Virus record (IMG/VR): IMGVR_UViG_3300017977_000057
Span: 1 to 41,118 of that record
Strand: one strand, 5' to 3'
DNA length: 41,118 nt
DNA from: a virus
Shown: piece by piece, positions 3,962 through 38,844 of the stretch
Position numbering within the stretch: position 1 is the first letter of the stretch
Layout of the letters: every line of letters starts with the position of its first letter
Made by a program: the position numbers and the translations under genes
The notes under the pieces: model-generated
Databases searched by the model: none
What the model saw: the letters and a program-made list of their open reading frames with translations, nothing else
Told to the model about the DNA's origin: nothing

Positions 3962-3992
3962 TTAGGTATATAGTATGATACTATATACCTAA
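3962..3992 (+). terminator. Perfect hairpin ending the 72-3954 unit
   Basis: TTAGGTATATAGTA (3962-3975) pairs perfectly over 14 bp with 3979-3992 around the loop TGA. A short T-run follows only later (about 4005-4011), so termination may be weak or factor-assisted. Confidence 0.65.
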
Positions 3993-7721: not shown

Positions 7722-9908
7722 TTAAACTATTTCACAAGCACCGCCAGAGCAAGCTTCCGCTACTATAGTATCTACTTCTGTGTATTTCTTAACTTTTAAT
7801 TTCTCATCCCAGTTAGGTATATTTAAGTTATTTATTATCTTAGACCATTTATGTAAATTATATACATCTTTTAAACAATCTGCACACATATCTACACTAT
7901 CAAATCTTTTAGCAAATTTATTAAATCTTCTAACGAAATCTCTTTTTAATAAATCTGAACTAGATTCAGTTAGTTTCTCACCTATACCTTTAGCGGTATT
8001 GATAGCATTCCATAAATCATCTTTAAACGCAGTTAGTCCCGCTTCTATTAAAGCAGATGTAAATAAAGAATCTTCACCATATTTAGAAAGTATCTCTTCT
8101 GATGTTAATACTTCTGTAAAAGGAGCTTGAGGGTAAGCTTTATCTCCAGAAGCAGATAATAGAGAAACTCCACATAATTTATCTCTATTATCAAAAATAT
8201 AATCTGTTACTTCATCCCAGTCATCTACAGTAATAGTATTACTCACATTATGATTAAGCCAAGGCTTTACACATAAATCATGATTCTTACCATTATTTAC
8301 CCAATTTACTTGTGCTTCAACAACTTTATCTAATTGCTTAACTCCTAGTAAATCAGATTTAAATATAGAACCCTCTTTGGGTATAATAGGAAATGCCACT
8401 ACTATATCATTAGAACCCCATACACTTTCTTCTACCATATTAGGATTTTCTTCCATGAATAGTTTAGCTATCTCCGTACCCTTGTTAAACTGTGTATGTC
8501 TAAGATACCTTTTAGAATGCTCTCCATGTATTCCAGAACCAGTACCCAATAAAACACTGGCGTTTCCGCTTGGCTTAATAGTTGTGGCTCTAGCCGCCTG
8601 GTTTATATCTATTAACTTTGCTGTTAACTTATTGTATTTTTTAACTATACTAGCACCCTTAGCTAAGGTATCTTTATTAAATAAAATCTCTGGATTATTC
8701 ATCCAACCCGTTATTGAAACACCTAGAAGAGCTTCTCTTTCTACTATTTCCTTGGTTTCTTTAGAAACAAATTTAAAATCTGTATAACCCGCTTGTAATG
8801 TACCCATTATAGAAGCCACTTTACACTGATGATAAAATATCTCTTCATTTACAGACATACCACCATTTATTTCTGTTAAGTTACATACAGAAAAACCTGA
8901 TCTACCGTCACTAGTATATGAGTATAATCCTATTTCAACACAAGGGTTATATAGAGAATCTAGATTATCTACCCAGATGAAACCAGGTTCACCAAAATCT
9001 TTAACTGATTTCATAAGGTGTTCAAATTGAGATTTAGTTGTTTTGTCCCTTAAAAGAACTGCTGAGTTATTACTTCTACCTCTATGTGCGTGTTCAATAA
9101 ACCAATCTCCTGTTTTTGCATTAAGCATATCTTCGTCTTCTGGAGAGAACAAACAAATAGCCGCTGCTCTTCTAACTCCACCTGAAATAACTGCATCTGA
9201 AATATGCATTATAATATCGTAAGCTACAATAGTAGGCATAGAAGTTATACCATCACTTACTAAGTTAGTAAGCATAATCTCTATTTTATCTAAAGCCTTT
9301 CTTAGTCCTTCTGGACCAGGAGCTTTAAACCCGCCTGAAATATGAGCACCCTTTGGTCTGATTTTACTTAAATCAAACTTAATAATCTTACCATGGTATT
9401 CTGGATGTTTACCTCCATCTTCAAAGAAAGAACTAAGTAAAATATCTACAGAATCAGCCCACCCCTCTATACTGTCATCTACTGTATAAGTAACAGTTTC
9501 TTTAGCTCTTGGTGAAATCTTAGGTAGTTTATTTATATGTCTATATTGTACACTAAAACCTACACCACAACCAGAAAGCATCAAATGGAATATCTCTCCA
9601 AATACAGCAACTCTATCTATATAAGAGGCAGTGCAATTGAAAAGTTTATTGTGATTCTTAAGTAACTGCTCTCCACCAAACTGCAATGCTCTTTGCGACC
9701 CTAGGAACAATTTTTGTTTATAAGCCATTTCTACTTCAGTCATTAACTCTAACAACTCAGGAGTAAGTTTATCTTTATAAAATGTTTTATGCATTTCCAT
9801 AACTCTACTTACTGATTCATCCCATGTTTCATATCTACCTTCTTTATCTAAAAATCTAGAGTATGACTCGTAAAATTTAGCATCTGCCATTAATTGTTTT
9901 GCATCCAT
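7722..9908 (-). CDS. Adenosylcobalamin-dependent (class II) ribonucleotide reductase
   Basis: Converts ribonucleotides to deoxyribonucleotides without oxygen or a separate radical subunit. The 728 aa length and the motifs fit the monomeric class II RTPR/NrdJ type. Visible residues: Cys92 in LFNCTAS (redox Cys of the active site), the GCGVGFSVQ segment, NPCVEI at 321-326 giving Asn321, Cys323 (thiyl) and Glu325, the partner Cys342 in VCNLTEI, the PSG loop IKPSGNASVLLGTGSG, and a C-terminal C-x4-C pair (Cys720, Cys725) that would be re-reduced by thioredoxin. No nrdB-type subunit or glutaredoxin lies nearby. The ATG overlaps the stop of the upstream small gene by one base (TAATG). The ThyX-like gene is divergent from it, so the two form a dNTP-supply locus. 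Confidence 0.95.
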   Translation of the reverse strand: MDAKQLMADAKFYESYSRFLDKEGRYETWDESVSRVMEMHKTFYKDKLTPELLELMTEVEMAYKQKLFLGSQRALQFGGEQLLKNHNKLFNCTASYIDRVAVFGEIFHLMLSGCGVGFSVQYRHINKLPKISPRAKETVTYTVDDSIEGWADSVDILLSSFFEDGGKHPEYHGKIIKFDLSKIRPKGAHISGGFKAPGPEGLRKALDKIEIMLTNLVSDGITSMPTIVAYDIIMHISDAVISGGVRRAAAICLFSPEDEDMLNAKTGDWFIEHAHRGRSNNSAVLLRDKTTKSQFEHLMKSVKDFGEPGFIWVDNLDSLYNPCVEIGLYSYTSDGRSGFSVCNLTEINGGMSVNEEIFYHQCKVASIMGTLQAGYTDFKFVSKETKEIVEREALLGVSITGWMNNPEILFNKDTLAKGASIVKKYNKLTAKLIDINQAARATTIKPSGNASVLLGTGSGIHGEHSKRYLRHTQFNKGTEIAKLFMEENPNMVEESVWGSNDIVVAFPIIPKEGSIFKSDLLGVKQLDKVVEAQVNWVNNGKNHDLCVKPWLNHNVSNTITVDDWDEVTDYIFDNRDKLCGVSLLSASGDKAYPQAPFTEVLTSEEILSKYGEDSLFTSALIEAGLTAFKDDLWNAINTAKGIGEKLTESSSDLLKRDFVRRFNKFAKRFDSVDMCADCLKDVYNLHKWSKIINNLNIPNWDEKLKVKKYTEVDTIVAEACSGGACEIV

Positions 9909-10114
9909 TATGATTCCTTATTGTTATTTAATATTGTGAAACTATTTTCAAAATGTTCTTCTGTTCTAATATAAACTTTATCTAAATTATCTACTTGCGA
10001 GTAATCAATTTGATTTACCTTTTGTTTGTTAGAGAGTACTATCTTAGTTATTTCATTAACTACATAAATATCTCCATCTTTGTGCTTATATTTTTCACCT
10101 TTTATTACAGCCAT
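9908..10114 (-). CDS. Small beta-rich protein upstream of the RNR (68 aa)
   Basis: Short, probably all-beta protein beginning MAVIKGEKYKHKDGDIYVV. The pattern recalls the small DUF1653-like or SH3-like domains found in phage genomes, but the match is weak. An AAGGA site precedes the ATG. Its stop overlaps the ribonucleotide reductase start, so the two are probably translationally coupled. It has no CxxC and so is not a glutaredoxin or thioredoxin. Confidence 0.6.
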   Translation of the reverse strand: MAVIKGEKYKHKDGDIYVVNEITKIVLSNKQKVNQIDYSQVDNLDKVYIRTEEHFENSFTILNNNKES

Positions 10115-10225
10115 AATATTCCTTTTTTATTTTGTAAAGTCTTTTACTTCATAGTATTTATAAGTATGAATTTTATTAAATACTAGGTTGTTAATATAGT
10201 AAAATTTATTTAAAAAGGAAACAAA

Positions 10226-11209
10226 ATGAAAGAAACGATTGAGATTTATGGAGATGGGTATGTTACGAGTAAAGTATCTACTATACCTACTAATGAAGTT
10301 AATAAAGATGAAGAATCGAGAGTGAAGTTTGTAACCGACTTAGCTGCTATTTCTAGAGGTAAAGATAGTGCTAATAATCCCGTAAAGAGATTTAATTCAT
10401 TATTAAAAGAAGCTGCACCGTATGAGGGCAATGAAAATGGTTCTCCTAGTAGACCATTAGAATTTGCTGGTGTTATATTAGAATATGTTTTTATTAACAA
10501 TATTTATAGAATTATCTTAGGTGATAAAAGATATGACTTTGATATAGCTTTCTTTAATAATAACTTAGGGAGATATTCTTACACAACTAATGATGGTGAA
10601 TTGACTTCTCCATATGGTAAAATATTTACTAATGTAAGAGCTTGTGTAAACGCTGGTATAAAATATGAAGATATGCCATTTGCATCTAGAGAAGACTTAC
10701 ATCTTTATGATAATTTCAAAGCTCTTAAAATAAAAGTACCTATGTTTGTATTTAACCATCTTATAACACATACTGCTTTATCTAAAGAAGCTAGAAGTGA
10801 AAGAGTAGTATCTTTAGATAGTTGTGATTATTGGTTACCTGAAGACTTTATAGAAAGAGTGTTAAACTCTGATGTGAAAAGTGATATTGATGTTTCTTGT
10901 AGAAATAACTTATTAGTTTTAGTAGAAAGTGGTAATAAAAAAGATATAGTAAATTATCTATTACATGCACCATCTCAAGCAGAAGTGCAAAAATTCTTTA
11001 AAGATTTAGGTTATCCTAAAGAGATATATCAAAGAGCTATGTTAGAGTTTAGATATAAAGAGATGTTGATGGTAGGTTGGGTAAACGATCCTAATTCTTG
11101 GACTCATCTTTTCTTAGAAAGAAACGCTATGAAAGATAACTGGAAGAACTGGACGCAATCTCAAACTGAAGAAGCTGTAGTGGCTATGAAAGAGATAATA
11201 AAAAAATAA
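10226..11209 (+). CDS. Divergent ThyX-like (flavin-dependent thymidylate synthase family) protein
   Basis: ThyX makes dTMP from dUMP using FAD. Residues 171-208 align with the ThyX core: VPMFVFNHLI matches the IPMFVARQ-type strand. THTALSKEARSER follows with the spacing of the RHR-x7-S signature (His182, Ser186, Ser191, Arg193 kept). DYWLPEDF then matches the usual F-Y-x-P. The flanking arginines of RHR are replaced by Thr (T-H-T), and the usual C-terminal AQxEIR is only suggested by DPNSWTHLFLERN and NWTQSQTEEAV. At 327 aa it is longer than typical ThyX (about 220-250), with an N-terminal extension. It may be an altered-specificity or inactive homologue. Divergent from the RNR gene; AAGGAAAC upstream of the start. 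Confidence 0.6.
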   Translation: MKETIEIYGDGYVTSKVSTIPTNEVNKDEESRVKFVTDLAAISRGKDSANNPVKRFNSLLKEAAPYEGNENGSPSRPLEFAGVILEYVFINNIYRIILGDKRYDFDIAFFNNNLGRYSYTTNDGELTSPYGKIFTNVRACVNAGIKYEDMPFASREDLHLYDNFKALKIKVPMFVFNHLITHTALSKEARSERVVSLDSCDYWLPEDFIERVLNSDVKSDIDVSCRNNLLVLVESGNKKDIVNYLLHAPSQAEVQKFFKDLGYPKEIYQRAMLEFRYKEMLMVGWVNDPNSWTHLFLERNAMKDNWKNWTQSQTEEAVVAMKEIIKK

Positions 11210-33042: not shown

Positions 33043-33702
33043 ATGAAAAATAACAGAATAATAAAATGGATAGTGAAATATTTTAAAATGTCCTTTGGCT
33101 TAGCTAAAGAGGAAGAAGAATTTAAATACGCTACTCCTGATAGCATAAGTGAAACACTTCCAGATAGTATAGAAGATTGTAATATAGGTACCTATGAGAC
33201 CAGATGCAGTGAAATAGATGCTAATAAGAAAAATATGTTATTAATGGATGACGCTATGATGCAATTTGGTTTACATGCTTTAGATTTCAATAAGATAAAA
33301 AGAAATTACCACTGTGATGTAGATGATAAATTCAATGTTTATATGTGTAAAGGTAGATATGCGGGATTTATAGCTCACGATTTAATACTAAATCTAGAAT
33401 ACTTGGATGTAGCTATCTTAGACCTTACTTTAGAGACTAGAGTAAAACTAAAAAATGGTAATATATATAGTTATGATGGTATAGACATTGCTGTATTAAT
33501 AAAGTCTAAATTTCCTAAATGTAGATTTAAGTTCTTTACCTCTCACAATATGAATCATAGAGACGAATCTATTATTTATTATGTAGAGAAGTATAAACAG
33601 TTGTTAGGCGGTAATATTATGGCTAAGGTTATCTCCAAATCAGATAACAGAGTAAAACATCTAAGAAGTCTCATGGAGTGTCCAGATGTTAAGCAAGAAT
33701 AG
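33043..33702 (+). CDS. Receiver-domain (response regulator-like) protein (219 aa)
   Basis: Receiver domains accept phosphate from histidine kinases. The five key positions are visible in order: acidic pair Asp69-Asp70 at the end of strand 1 (NMLLMDD), phospho-acceptor Asp127 at the end of strand 3 (VAILDLTLE), Thr166/Ser167 (FKFFTSH), and Lys199 (VISKSDN). Spacings are longer than usual, implying insertions in the loops. A ~60-residue N-terminal segment precedes the domain, and only about ten residues follow, so there is no DNA-binding output domain. The histidine kinase gene overlaps it by 17 bases, which supports the pairing. AGGAG upstream of the ATG. The alternative, a chance motif string in an unrelated fold, is less likely. 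Confidence 0.65.
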   Translation: MKNNRIIKWIVKYFKMSFGLAKEEEEFKYATPDSISETLPDSIEDCNIGTYETRCSEIDANKKNMLLMDDAMMQFGLHALDFNKIKRNYHCDVDDKFNVYMCKGRYAGFIAHDLILNLEYLDVAILDLTLETRVKLKNGNIYSYDGIDIAVLIKSKFPKCRFKFFTSHNMNHRDESIIYYVEKYKQLLGGNIMAKVISKSDNRVKHLRSLMECPDVKQE

Positions 33703-35014
33703 TAACCCATTATCTTTAAATATGGTTTTCAAAAGATATTTTATAAATTTATTTATATTTATTTTTTTTACAGCTATAGTTACAGCTTATGCTGTTATCG
33801 TTACGGACCAACAAAGAGCAAAGTCATTTTCTAATTTAATTATAAATACAACTGAAATAAATAAAGAGAATTTAAGGGAAATATGTAAACTTACAGAGTG
33901 TTCCACTATAAGATACAATGGAGTAGCTTATAGGTTTGATTCTATAGATGGTAAACCATATGTTTGTGATAGTGCAACTAGACTAAAGTTTTTTATCAAG
34001 TCTAATTTACCAAATGTTATATCTATACATAAAGATGGAGTGGATGTTCTCATTATAGGTAATGATGAGCAGTTAGTAGCTATAATATGGTCAGCTACAA
34101 AGTTACTAATGATGTTATCTTTTTTATTTACTTTAGTCTATTTATTCTATCTAAAGAATGTAACTAGAAATACTATCTTAGCCAATAAGAATATACAAGA
34201 CTTATTAGCTAGTAAGTTACAAAGAACTATGGTAGAGTCTATGTATCATGATGCTTTAGGACCTATAGTAGTAATAAAGGATATCTCTAATGAGCTAATA
34301 CCCCATATGGAGAATAATACTATAAGTACACTAGGTAAAGATAATCTTTTTCTATACACTAATAGCCTAACTACTGCTGTAGATCAATTAGAGAGTGTTC
34401 TATTATCTTTAAAAGAGAGTAAGAATTATTCTTATACTAATGGTAACAAGAGTGTATATAACTTAATAACTAATATATTAGCTACAATAAGTAAGTTTAA
34501 GATGGATAAGTTTAATAGTAGTATTTTAAAAGAAGAATTGTTAGACACATATAGATTATCTTCTATGGCTAACGGAGAACTATCCGTAGTTCTTAATAAT
34601 CTTATTACTAATGCATTAGAAGCGGGTAGTACAACTATTATGTTTGATGCTAATGTAAGAAAAAATAAAGTTATGGATATATATGTAATTGATGATGGTA
34701 GAGGTGTAAGAGACTTAAATGGTAAAGTATTAAGTAAAGAGAATTACCATATGATATTTAATAAAGGTATAACTACTAAAGCTACTAATAATTCAGTTTC
34801 TATAAATGAAAAACTAACTTGGTTACAAACTAAGTTTAAAAATTATGTTATGGGTGACTTTATTACTTTAGATAGTGGTAGAGGAGAAGGTCTCTTTATA
34901 ATAAAAGAGAAGCTTACAAAGTGTGGCGGTAGTATAGAGTTAGAAAGTACCGCTAGTAATGGTTCTGTATTTAAAATTACAGTACCCATAGAGAAAATAA
35001 AGAAAGGTAAATAA
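33686..35014 (+). CDS. Membrane sensor histidine kinase (442 aa)
   Basis: Autophosphorylates a histidine using ATP and passes the phosphate to a receiver. Two transmembrane helices (about 15-39 and 130-157) bracket a ~90-residue extracytoplasmic sensor region with four Cys (67, 72, 94 and nearby). The dimerisation/phosphoacceptor helix has MYHDALGP (His188). The ATPase part has the N box VLNNLITNALEAG (302-314), G1 box DDGRG (336-340), F-box-like IFNKGITTK (357-365), and G2 box GRGEGLFIIKEKL (398-410), then the usual C-terminal strands. All essential boxes are intact. The start at 33686 lies inside the receiver gene with GGAG upstream; the next gene overlaps by one base. It is embedded in the lysis cassette. 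Confidence 0.88.
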   Translation: MLSKNSNPLSLNMVFKRYFINLFIFIFFTAIVTAYAVIVTDQQRAKSFSNLIINTTEINKENLREICKLTECSTIRYNGVAYRFDSIDGKPYVCDSATRLKFFIKSNLPNVISIHKDGVDVLIIGNDEQLVAIIWSATKLLMMLSFLFTLVYLFYLKNVTRNTILANKNIQDLLASKLQRTMVESMYHDALGPIVVIKDISNELIPHMENNTISTLGKDNLFLYTNSLTTAVDQLESVLLSLKESKNYSYTNGNKSVYNLITNILATISKFKMDKFNSSILKEELLDTYRLSSMANGELSVVLNNLITNALEAGSTTIMFDANVRKNKVMDIYVIDDGRGVRDLNGKVLSKENYHMIFNKGITTKATNNSVSINEKLTWLQTKFKNYVMGDFITLDSGRGEGLFIIKEKLTKCGGSIELESTASNGSVFKITVPIEKIKKGK

Positions 35015-35709
35015 TGAAAAATATACAAGAGTTTTTAAATTGGTTTAGAGTAAGAAGTCCTAAAATTCCTAAGAATTATGAGATGTTATTAGATAACATC
35101 GACGATGCTGAAGGTGGAACATTACATAGAAATCGTAGAGAAAGTAATATAACTAATGGATGGGGGATATACAAAGCATTACATCCTAATGCACTTCTAT
35201 GGAAGTATGTAGATTTAGTTTCTAGCGAAGTTACAGATTTAGATACTGAAGACTGGGAAAAAGATTTAATAGATTTAATAGATAGTAGGTTAGATAAAGA
35301 TATAGAAAGATACTTATCTTATTTATTCTATAAAGAATATCTTAAAGGAGCACACTTAGAGTTATTTGATAAGGATCTAGTTATCACTATGGCTAACTTA
35401 TATACTAACTCTCCTGAGGGTGCTTGGATGTCTGTACAAGAGGGTATATGGGATATGTATAAATATGGTCTATTAGATCATGATAAAACTGATATATCTG
35501 GTGTAGATGGAGGGTTCGGTGGTAAGACTAAAAGGTGTCTACTTAAATTAAATAATAGAGATTTCAAAGATGATATTATTTTTAAACAAGCTATTTTATT
35601 AGCTATGAAAAGTTACTATACTGATTTAACTGTAGGTAACCCCGACAAGTACCTTAGAAATGGTAATGGGTGGGATAACCGTATGGAAGATTTACAACAT
35701 AGTAAATAA
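35014..35709 (+). CDS. GH108-family lysozyme/endolysin (231 aa)
   Basis: Cleaves the glycan backbone of peptidoglycan. The N-terminal part has the GH108 signature: acidic residue in IDDAEGGTLHR (Glu33 in E-G-G, the likely catalyst) and ITNGWGIYKALHP matching the usual TNYGIT. The C-terminal part (SPEGAWMSVQEGIWDMYKY, then DGGFGGKTK) matches the companion peptidoglycan-binding region, where LQ...DGxxGxxT is typical. No signal peptide, so release would need the holin-like proteins upstream. The ATG overlaps the kinase stop by one base, tying its translation to the signalling genes. The next gene begins 11 bases after its stop. Confidence 0.82.
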   Translation: MKNIQEFLNWFRVRSPKIPKNYEMLLDNIDDAEGGTLHRNRRESNITNGWGIYKALHPNALLWKYVDLVSSEVTDLDTEDWEKDLIDLIDSRLDKDIERYLSYLFYKEYLKGAHLELFDKDLVITMANLYTNSPEGAWMSVQEGIWDMYKYGLLDHDKTDISGVDGGFGGKTKRCLLKLNNRDFKDDIIFKQAILLAMKSYYTDLTVGNPDKYLRNGNGWDNRMEDLQHSK

Positions 35710-35720
35710 AAAGGAAAGAT

Positions 35721-36110
35721 ATGTCTGCAGATATTTCAAATTATTTAGATAGTATAGATGTAGGTAAAATGAACTTACCTTGGTGTAAAACAAATGGTAT
35801 AATAAATAATGATACTAGTACAGAACCAGAAGAAAAAGATAATAGCTTACCAATAGAAAATGACACTATAGTGAATGTAGCAGGAGTAGTTCCTAAATTT
35901 GAAACTAAACTAGTAACTAATGGTAAGTTTGCTTTAACAGAAACTCCTTATTTTTTAGGTACTTATTTCATTAATAACGAAATTAGATTTAAAGATAATA
36001 ACGGTTTGACTAGTCGACATGAAGATATAAATGTCGACGGTAAAGTAGCTGATTTGGAGAATGGTTTATCTGGTACAGTTTCAGTTGGGTATTATTATAA
36101 GGCAGAATAG
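35721..36110 (+). CDS. Hypothetical protein, possible virion component (129 aa)
   Basis: Not recognised. The N-terminal third is acidic and flexible-looking; residues ~50-129 form beta strands rich in Asn, Gly and Thr, like small fibre- or baseplate-associated proteins. AAGGAAAG upstream of the ATG. It lies between the endolysin and the tail-fibre gene, so a role in tail-fibre attachment is plausible, not shown. Confidence 0.68.
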   Translation: MSADISNYLDSIDVGKMNLPWCKTNGIINNDTSTEPEEKDNSLPIENDTIVNVAGVVPKFETKLVTNGKFALTETPYFLGTYFINNEIRFKDNNGLTSRHEDINVDGKVADLENGLSGTVSVGYYYKAE

Positions 36111-36169: not shown

Positions 36170-37102
36170 ATGGCACAAATATTAGAACTTAAAGATCACA
36201 ATCAGGACATTGAGATTGCTAAGAAAGTTGCACAAGTTGATTTTGACTCAAGAGTTAGTACTGTAAATAACAGTTTATCTCAAGAGACTTCAGATAGAAT
36301 TGCTGGAGATGCTGCTGGATTATCAGCTGGTAAATCATATACAGATAGTGAGATTACAACTCTTAATGATGCTTTAGTTAATATTATTAATAATAATGTT
36401 ACTACTTTAGAAGCTGCGGATACTGCTTTAGCTGGTAGAGCTACTGCTCTTGAGCAAGCACAAGCTATTATTAATGGTAATAGTGATGTTGAAGGTTCAT
36501 TCAGAAAAGCTATTGCAGATGTTGTTGGTAATGCTCCAGAAGCATTAGATACTTTAGCTGAAATCGCTACATACTTAAATGGTGTAGATGGTGAAGTTGC
36601 TGGTTCTATTGTAGATACAATTGCAGCTAATACAACAGCTATAAATGAACAAGTTGCTAAACAAGCTCAAGATTTAGCTAATACTACACAAACTATTACT
36701 GATAATAAAGCTGCTATCGAGCAAACTGTTTCAGATGTAGTTGCAGCTCAAGCTACAATCAATACAACTTTAGATACTAAAATTGATGATGAGATTTCAT
36801 CGGTAAGAGCAGATATGGCTGACCAAATGCCATACTACGAGTATACAGGAAGTGCTGTGTCTATAGATGGTGGTACAGGTGCTATCACATTTACAGTAGC
36901 TCATGCTCCAAGAGGTGGAATATTCAGAAATGCTGTTGATGTATTTAAAACTATTGATGGTCAAAGATACAGAGTAGGTGAATTTACAGCTACAGTTGAT
37001 ATCGGTGATGCTACAGGTAAAACTATCCTTATTGATTCTACAGATGTAGACTTAGCTGGATGTGAAGCATTTGCAGGTTACAACTATATTAAAACTGTTT
37101 GA
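36170..37102 (+). CDS. Tail fibre protein, ends at an in-frame UGA (310 aa)
   Basis: The N-terminal ~210 residues are an Ala/Thr/Asn/Asp-rich coiled-coil/heptad shaft with repeated TALEQAQ and AANTTAINEQ units. They contain the segment NAPEALDTLAEIATYLNG, a common motif in phage tail fibres. The C-terminal ~100 residues are beta-rich (YTGSAVSIDGGTGAITFTV, then KTILIDSTDVDLAGCEAF). It ends at TGA (37100-37102), but the same frame stays open for 114 more codons to TAG at 37445. ATT and GTT dominate over ATA and GTA, unlike adjacent genes. AAGGATGC precedes the ATG. It probably binds host surface polysaccharide or protein. Confidence 0.82.
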   Translation: MAQILELKDHNQDIEIAKKVAQVDFDSRVSTVNNSLSQETSDRIAGDAAGLSAGKSYTDSEITTLNDALVNIINNNVTTLEAADTALAGRATALEQAQAIINGNSDVEGSFRKAIADVVGNAPEALDTLAEIATYLNGVDGEVAGSIVDTIAANTTAINEQVAKQAQDLANTTQTITDNKAAIEQTVSDVVAAQATINTTLDTKIDDEISSVRADMADQMPYYEYTGSAVSIDGGTGAITFTVAHAPRGGIFRNAVDVFKTIDGQRYRVGEFTATVDIGDATGKTILIDSTDVDLAGCEAFAGYNYIKTV

Positions 37103-37447
37103 ACTCCTAGCCTAATTGTTCCTATAGGTGAGATAGTAACTATTGAGAATGTATTAGATTACAGTACAATTACTATCTTAGGTACTACTGAAGAAGATTC
37201 AGGTAGACTTAGAGTAAGAACTGAAGATGATAATTTCACTACATACGATTATAGAGACCTTATTGTTACAGGTGGTACATTAACTATAGATAATGATCTA
37301 GGCAATGCGGTAAATGATTACAGAAGAATAGTTATCTTAAATGATGCTTCTTTAATTATCGCCAACAGTGCTACTAACCCTGCGGTTTCGTGGGAAGAGA
37401 TGATATTTGGAACTGAAAACTCTAGCGTAAGAATAGAGGAAGTATAG
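37103..37447 (+). CDS. Possible UGA-readthrough extension of the tail fibre (114 aa)
   Basis: In frame with the fibre gene and directly after its TGA, this stretch stays open to a TAG at 37445. It encodes a beta-rich, Thr/Asp/Ile-rich sequence (TPSLIVPIGEIVTIENVLDY and further) that looks like a natural continuation of the fibre's C-terminal domain. It has no ATG and no ribosome binding site of its own. A single G-to-A change in a Trp TGG codon (V-W-T-P) would explain the stop, or UGA may be read through. Codon use moves back toward ATA/GTA here. Confidence 0.5.
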   Translation, partial: TPSLIVPIGEIVTIENVLDYSTITILGTTEEDSGRLRVRTEDDNFTTYDYRDLIVTGGTLTIDNDLGNAVNDYRRIVILNDASLIIANSATNPAVSWEEMIFGTENSSVRIEEV

Positions 37448-37451
37448 TAAC

Positions 37452-37481
37452 CTTATAGGTATGAACATTCATACCTATAAG
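37452..37481 (+). terminator. Hairpin after the tail-fibre frame
   Basis: CTTATAGGTATGAA (37452-37465) pairs over 14 bases with 37468-37481, just after the TAG that ends the extended fibre frame. This placement suggests the gene was originally bounded here, not at 37102. Confidence 0.65.
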
Positions 37482-37494
37482 ATAAGGATTTTTC

Positions 37495-37854
37495 ATGGGT
37501 GATAGATGTTTTATATTTATACCTTCGGGTGATAATGAAAAAGATATAAAAGAGTTAAGTAAATTGATAAATAACTTAAGAGAATCTTCTATAACTTCAG
37601 ATCAAATGGAAGACTTTAGAGAAGAGATGTTTGATAAGTTTATCTCTATTGAAAAATACAACGCTGATAAAGAAACTATAGAAGAAACTATAGATGGTAA
37701 AGAACATAAAAGTTATTTACCTGCTGAAATAGTTAAAATCATAATAGTTTTCTTTTTAGGTGTTACCCTTACAAGTGGTGTATTCTTTTATAATCTTTAC
37801 CATAAAAATGTAAAAGAGAAGACCACTTTAGTAAGAAAAGAAACAAGCTCTTAA
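37495..37854 (+). CDS. Membrane-anchored small protein (119 aa)
   Basis: No family recognised. The N-terminal ~80 residues are charged and helical, followed by one transmembrane helix at about 82-104 (IVKIIIVFFLGVTLTSGVFF) and a basic/Thr/Ser-rich C-terminal tail. AAGGA upstream of the ATG. It is a single gene between hairpins at 37452 and 37865. Its position near fibre and lysis genes leaves a role in envelope attachment, superinfection exclusion or lysis open. Confidence 0.68.
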   Translation: MGDRCFIFIPSGDNEKDIKELSKLINNLRESSITSDQMEDFREEMFDKFISIEKYNADKETIEETIDGKEHKSYLPAEIVKIIIVFFLGVTLTSGVFFYNLYHKNVKEKTTLVRKETSS

Positions 37855-37950: not shown

Positions 37951-38844
37951 ATGTCTATTGTAATAAGAATAACTAATCCAGAACTAGTAGATGGAGTTAG
38001 TCATGAAGAATCACATTTTCAAGTAGCTACTGATAAACTAATGCATAATAAAGTAGCTGAGTCGTATGAAACAGAAAGTCTACTTTCTAAAACATTCAGT
38101 ATACCTTTAGATCCATCTGTAAAATATTACAGTAGAACAAGACTAAGGTTATCTACAGGATGGACTATTTGGTCAGCAGTTACTGAATTTGTACCTACGG
38201 ATATAAATCAATTGGATATAAACCCAAAAGTACCAAGTATCATAACGCCACCTACTATCACAACAGATAGTGACATGACTTCACATACACCTATGTGGTT
38301 TAACATTAATTTATCTGAGTTTGTTTCTGATAAGGATATAAAGCATGTAGCTACTTCTATAGTAATAGAAGATATGTTTGGTAATGTAAAATACCTTAGA
38401 GAATATGATAAGGTAAACTTAACAACAGTTTTAATAGATGATGTAATTCTTGATAGTGGAACAGCATATGTTATCAAAGCTTGTTATCATGCTAGTAATG
38501 ATTGTGTATCTGAGTTATCTTCATATGTTATAGTTACTGCTACAGGTAACGAAGTATCTTTCTTTAAACCTTTAACTAATATAGACTTTAGCGAAGATTT
38601 TGAAACTACTTTAGAGAAGATAGATGGCTTAACTAAAACTATGACTACTATCTATAGTTACGATGATAATAGCATAAAGGAAGTTTATAATAATGTCAAT
38701 ATTGTAGCAGATACATTACATAACATTACTATCCCAGCTAATACATTAAAAGATAAAAAACTTTACTTATTAAAGTTAACTTTATCTACTATAAATAAAC
38801 CAGATCAAATAGTTTATATCAAATTCACAACATACACAAACTAG
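37951..38844 (+). CDS. Putative beta-sandwich virion protein (297 aa)
   Basis: Three consecutive ~95-residue beta-rich units look like Ig/fibronectin type III-like domains. The first is ITNPELVDGVSHEESHFQVA and on to RLRLSTGWTIWSAVTEF, the second begins near PPTITTDSDM, and the third near TATGNEVSFFKPLTN. Such domains decorate phage tails and heads. No enzyme motif, signal peptide or membrane segment. AAGGAAAAA precedes the ATG. The stop overlaps the palindrome at 38843. The domain call is by pattern only. Confidence 0.58.
   Translation: MSIVIRITNPELVDGVSHEESHFQVATDKLMHNKVAESYETESLLSKTFSIPLDPSVKYYSRTRLRLSTGWTIWSAVTEFVPTDINQLDINPKVPSIITPPTITTDSDMTSHTPMWFNINLSEFVSDKDIKHVATSIVIEDMFGNVKYLREYDKVNLTTVLIDDVILDSGTAYVIKACYHASNDCVSELSSYVIVTATGNEVSFFKPLTNIDFSEDFETTLEKIDGLTKTMTTIYSYDDNSIKEVYNNVNIVADTLHNITIPANTLKDKKLYLLKLTLSTINKPDQIVYIKFTTYTN

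Follow-up and report, generated by a model that had tools for sequence, protein, structure and literature searches.

The stretch of DNA analysed here, in the following called the window, comprises 41,118 bp (positions 1 to 41,118 of IMG/VR record IMGVR_UViG_3300017977_000057). On its plus strand, an open reading frame at 36170..37102 encodes a tail fibre of 310 amino acids and ends with an in-frame UGA at 37100..37102 (codon 311). The frame matched PHROG tail-fibre and tail-protein families with E values of 5e-5 to 3e-3, as expected of a tail fibre, and its product consists of an N-terminal part, a coiled coil bearing the tail-fibre motif 'APEALDTL' and a C-terminal beta domain. The original prediction was that the fibre frame stops at this TGA yet stays open up to a TAG, and the frame check agreed: the same frame continues without interruption for 114 codons on the plus strand (37103..37444) until the distal stop of the extended frame, the TAG at 37445..37447. 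A 14-bp hairpin follows on the same strand (37452..37481), at distances of 4 nt from the TAG and 350 nt from the TGA. The UGA, with A as the next base, closes the fibre domain, and the next domain begins 0-3 codons later. The extension behind it comprises a beta domain of about 85 residues and a tail of 26 residues and lacks a canonical start.

Among the genes around the fibre, 33686-35014 encodes a phage protein with a histidine-kinase-type ATPase domain (Pfam HATPase_c, E 6e-9). The 5' neighbour (35014-35709) showed a sub-threshold peptidoglycan-binding match, and the 3' neighbour (37495-37854) encodes a small protein in which one hydrophobic segment was seen by eye. Given these two flanking genes, the fibre possibly adjoins a lysis cassette. 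The product of gene 35721-36110 was suspected by eye to resemble the C-terminal domain of the fibre; BLASTP revealed no similarity.

The window codes for phage RNA polymerase beta-type subunits of the multi-subunit type and for a divergent DnaB helicase, as expected of a phiKZ-like phage. The nearest named relatives of these proteins show only about 25-38% identity. Because of this gene content and the low identity to named relatives, the window is, as judged from its proteins, a fragment of a deep-branching phiKZ-like jumbo phage.

The chance of an open frame of 114 codons is about 3e-5 at the base composition of the window (29% G+C). For the extension, codon usage scored +0.23 in frame, and the scores of the other five frames were all negative. 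None of 1370 out-of-frame stretches of 114 codons from coding regions reached the score of the extension. Since the codon usage is coding in one frame and the extension is homologous to a C-terminal domain of related jumbo contigs (see below), the extension is by these measures real coding sequence, in this frame only. Readthrough calls for a coding extension directly behind the UGA and in its frame, and such an extension was found here with regard to both frame and codon usage. The claim that no new start precedes the extension also held: no ATG, GTG or TTG was present in frame near the UGA or anywhere before codon 100 of the extension, where the first one occurs. Starts within the first 100 nt after the TGA were out of frame only, and no AGGAG-like site was present ahead of ATT or ATA codons.

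We found 13 strong short-loop hairpins in the window, one of which is intragenic. Eleven of the 12 others are positioned at most 11 nt from the stop of a listed gene, and the twelfth is the hairpin at 37452-37481. Because a hairpin of this gene-end class stands after the TAG and not after the TGA, the gene end by this genome's own habit is the TAG rather than the TGA. A hairpin and a terminator had been predicted behind the TAG, and the hairpin was confirmed 4 nt downstream, but it is not a classic T-run terminator, as ATAAGGATTT stands right after it. Since an immediate T-run is lacking, a role as a terminator is putative. Perfect hairpins of considerable length (9-17 bp), most of them lacking a T-run, were observed at 12 gene ends between positions 3962 and 38874 of the window, and the gene-end hairpins could represent a phage-specific 3'-end or processing signal.

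A helicase profile built from a two-sequence alignment led to 80 related loci. The extension matched large open frames of the records G001 and G016 at their C-terminal ends, with 36% identity over about 100 residues. G016 harbors two tandem copies of the extension domain, and a profile search added a third copy in G016 and one copy in G019, the latter match being backed by hhalign (E 1e-5 over 78 columns). In all three records, the domain or its tandem copies run to the C-terminus of the protein. In G016, the domain-bearing genes encode neighbouring adhesin-like proteins of 728-830 amino acids with one or two tandem C-terminal copies (L092:2078-4570 and L108:808-2994). The modular, adhesin-like proteins of G001 and G016 thus share with the window the position of the domain at the extreme C-terminus; they differ in that no stop separates the domain from the protein of 730-830 amino acids to which it is fused, while in the window it is found behind the UGA of the fibre. 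At their N-termini, the large G001 and G016 proteins resemble the product of window gene 37951-38844, and we therefore conclude from these sequence similarities that the domain moves between proteins of the fibre cluster.

The arrangement in G019 (locus L109) also has features in common with the window. There, the domain is encoded directly 3' of a gene for a coiled-coil fibre of 328 amino acids, a hairpin follows, and the cluster also contains a homologue of window gene 37951-38844. The difference is that the domain of G019 forms a separate gene of 100 amino acids with its own ATG and an upstream ribosome-binding site (AAAGGAG), and that the fibre gene ahead of it ends with TAA. The one domain hence occurs in three arrangements in related phages (fused, as a separate gene, and behind a UGA), which form a small evolutionary series. 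The domain was not detected in GTDB genomes, Foldseek searches against PDB and BFVD gave no match at E <= 0.001, and a comparison to PDB sequences revealed no relative below E 0.68. In AlphaFold2 models, the core of the extension domain reached a pLDDT of about 76-82; when the extension was modelled alone, the pLDDT was about 80 over its first 50 residues, with modest confidence overall.

Searches with fibre patterns in IMG/VR and GTDB genomes revealed no close relative of the window fibre, nor did tblastn against phage records with the extension or the domain upstream of it. A search with the family of gene 37951-38844 led to contig G050 (L113), which encodes a homologous fibre (26% identity over 272 residues, BLASTP E 5e-15; 39% identity in the N-terminal third). 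The stop of the L113 fibre is UAA-UAA. When the C-terminal domain of this fibre was aligned against the read-through window protein, its last residue fell at window residue 313 in seven of nine gap settings, in close proximity to the UGA at codon 311. This C-terminal alignment is weak (z 2.3; 9 of 500 shuffles were as good), but its end point was left free. AlphaFold2 was also applied to the junction, again with modest confidence, and predicted two beta units linked by a stretch of low confidence (residues 93-100) in which the UGA codon lies. Because the homologous L113 fibre stops at the equivalent residue, within about 2 residues, the UGA looks like the native end of the fibre rather than a random break, and by the same alignment the fibre of 310 amino acids seems to be complete. 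The original view that the UGA cuts the fibre gene and arose from TGG is probably wrong, since the 310-aa product resembles a complete fibre.

Readthrough, a nonsense mutation and an artefact had all been considered at the outset, and readthrough is now the best supported of the three, because a homologous fibre ends at this point, the extension is a separate domain in relatives and a restart codon is lacking. The analysis established an open frame, a coding extension, its homology to C-terminal domains, the match of the UGA to the end of L113 and the lack of a canonical restart. What we infer is that readthrough occurs, how frequent it is, which residue is inserted and what the domain does, possibly receptor binding or surface decoration. 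On the sequence evidence, we slightly favour a native, leaky UGA that gives rise to a short fibre and, as a minor product, a long read-through fibre. Most ribosomes would halt at the UGA and release the complete 310-aa fibre. A minority would decode the UGA, most likely as tryptophan by a near-cognate tRNA-Trp, and continue through the C-terminal beta domain of 114 codons up to the UAG. The resulting minor fibre of 425 amino acids would display an added surface or tip domain. The further idea that programmed readthrough of a UGA, rather than frameshifting, serves a dsDNA jumbo phage to equip a minority of its tail fibres with a mobile C-terminal domain, so that two fibre types of different surface specificity arise from one gene, is put forward more tentatively, at slightly below an even chance.

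The UGA is followed by an A, a context for misreading by tRNA-Trp that was reported to be prone to such misreading in E. coli (PMC5289835); as a counterpoint, A at position +4 is common in AT-rich DNA. A stable or stimulatory RNA structure just 3' of the UGA was not significant (z -1.19). Our searches, outside of which near-identical records may be found, revealed no relative in which this UGA and the extension occur together, and conservation of the stop was not demonstrable. A mechanical scan of the loci of fetched relatives yielded seven other readthrough candidates, which by their translation were mostly antisense-like or unconvincing. Since these were judged spurious, the UGA plus extension of the window is a single case among the scanned loci.

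Several other explanations for the UGA have to be weighed against a leaky stop. The lack of a visible readthrough stimulator would also be in agreement with a recent nonsense change or polymorphism, by which the stop removes the C-terminal domain from a continuous fusion of fibre and domain. Such fusions without a stop are known from the virion-like proteins of G001 and G016, the step from TGG (tryptophan) to TGA takes a single base, and an untranslated stretch of this length could escape new stops until about 0.2 neutral changes per site have accumulated, which is compatible with a young stop. This explanation is nevertheless unlikely: only a few codons separate the stop from the domain junction, which is expected in about 1-2% of cases if a stop falls at random in 425 codons, and the homologous fibre of L113 naturally ends at the equivalent point. 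Somewhat less probable still is that the extension represents a separate downstream gene like that of G019, which has lost its Shine-Dalgarno sequence and ATG and is dead, uses a non-canonical start or is translated by reinitiation. A precedent is the domain gene of G019, which follows a fibre gene directly and has both an ATG and an upstream AAAGGAG, but the window has neither an in-frame start before codon 100 nor an AGGAG-like site before ATT or ATA. Moreover, the extension is in frame with the fibre without any spacer, is undamaged throughout and shows coding codon usage. A one-base sequencing or assembly error in the consensus is conceivable, as a single contig is the only source. Such errors are rare, and the error would need to coincide with the domain junction where the homologous fibre ends, which makes this origin of the UGA improbable.

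The original prediction also mentioned the recoding of UGA to tryptophan as known from phages, and such recoding is not supported here. Phages do reassign stops (PMC11210395, PMC9523058), and the contig, a genome fragment without a single tRNA gene in its 41 kb, would be compatible with a suppressor tRNA encoded elsewhere in the genome that allows UGA to be read as tryptophan in late genes. A code of this type would show many in-frame UGA codons at tryptophan positions and no use of UGA as a stop. We counted 74 TGG codons versus one internal TGA, TGG is used throughout the neighbouring genes of the cluster, and TGA is the stop of three other genes in the window, so that this reading is very improbable. 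The insertion of selenocysteine, for which the presence of a UGA alone speaks, can be practically neglected: the only Rfam match at the UGA site, to a spliceosomal RNA, was below threshold and due to chance, and a structural fibre is implausible as a selenoprotein.

Recoding that adds extra domains to phage virions is mainly known in the form of frameshifting, and UGA readthrough for this purpose mainly from small RNA phages. A leaky UGA at the end of the fibre gene would be most similar to the coat/A1 system of phage Q-beta, in which a virion protein gene with a complete short form carries a UGA and a same-frame extension, the UGA is decoded as tryptophan about 1 in 15 times, and the long form gains a beta-rich surface domain (PMC8067240). 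Q-beta differs in being a small RNA phage in which the coat protein is extended, while here the tail fibre of a dsDNA jumbo phage would be extended. Ig-like C-terminal domains often join virion proteins of tailed phages by frameshifting, as in T3, A2 and Listeria phages (PMC5009743). These systems would share with the window a mobile C-terminal domain that recoding places on a fraction of the copies of a virion protein, with the difference that a frameshift is used there and a same-frame UGA would be read here, and that the window domain has no significant match to a known fold. A review proposed that chance recombination settles whether an Ig-like domain is fused in frame or can be expressed only by recoding (PMC5009743). 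By analogy, the arrival of a domain in frame but directly 3' of a stop is to be regarded as a further outcome of the same recombination process. If the UGA is indeed leaky, a jumbo phage would obtain two receptor- or surface-binding forms from one gene by simple means, and what gene callers take for the end of such a protein would in fact be a UGA acting as a domain switch.

The DnaB-like helicase genes of two related jumbo-phage contigs (L037 and L038) are interrupted by group I introns (Rfam RF00028; 11134-11496 with 84 bits and 8385-8750 with 72 bits, respectively), while the DnaB-like helicase gene of the window has no intron. In L038, an open reading frame that resembles a homing endonuclease, as seen by eye from its sequence, is located near the intron copy (9699-10871).
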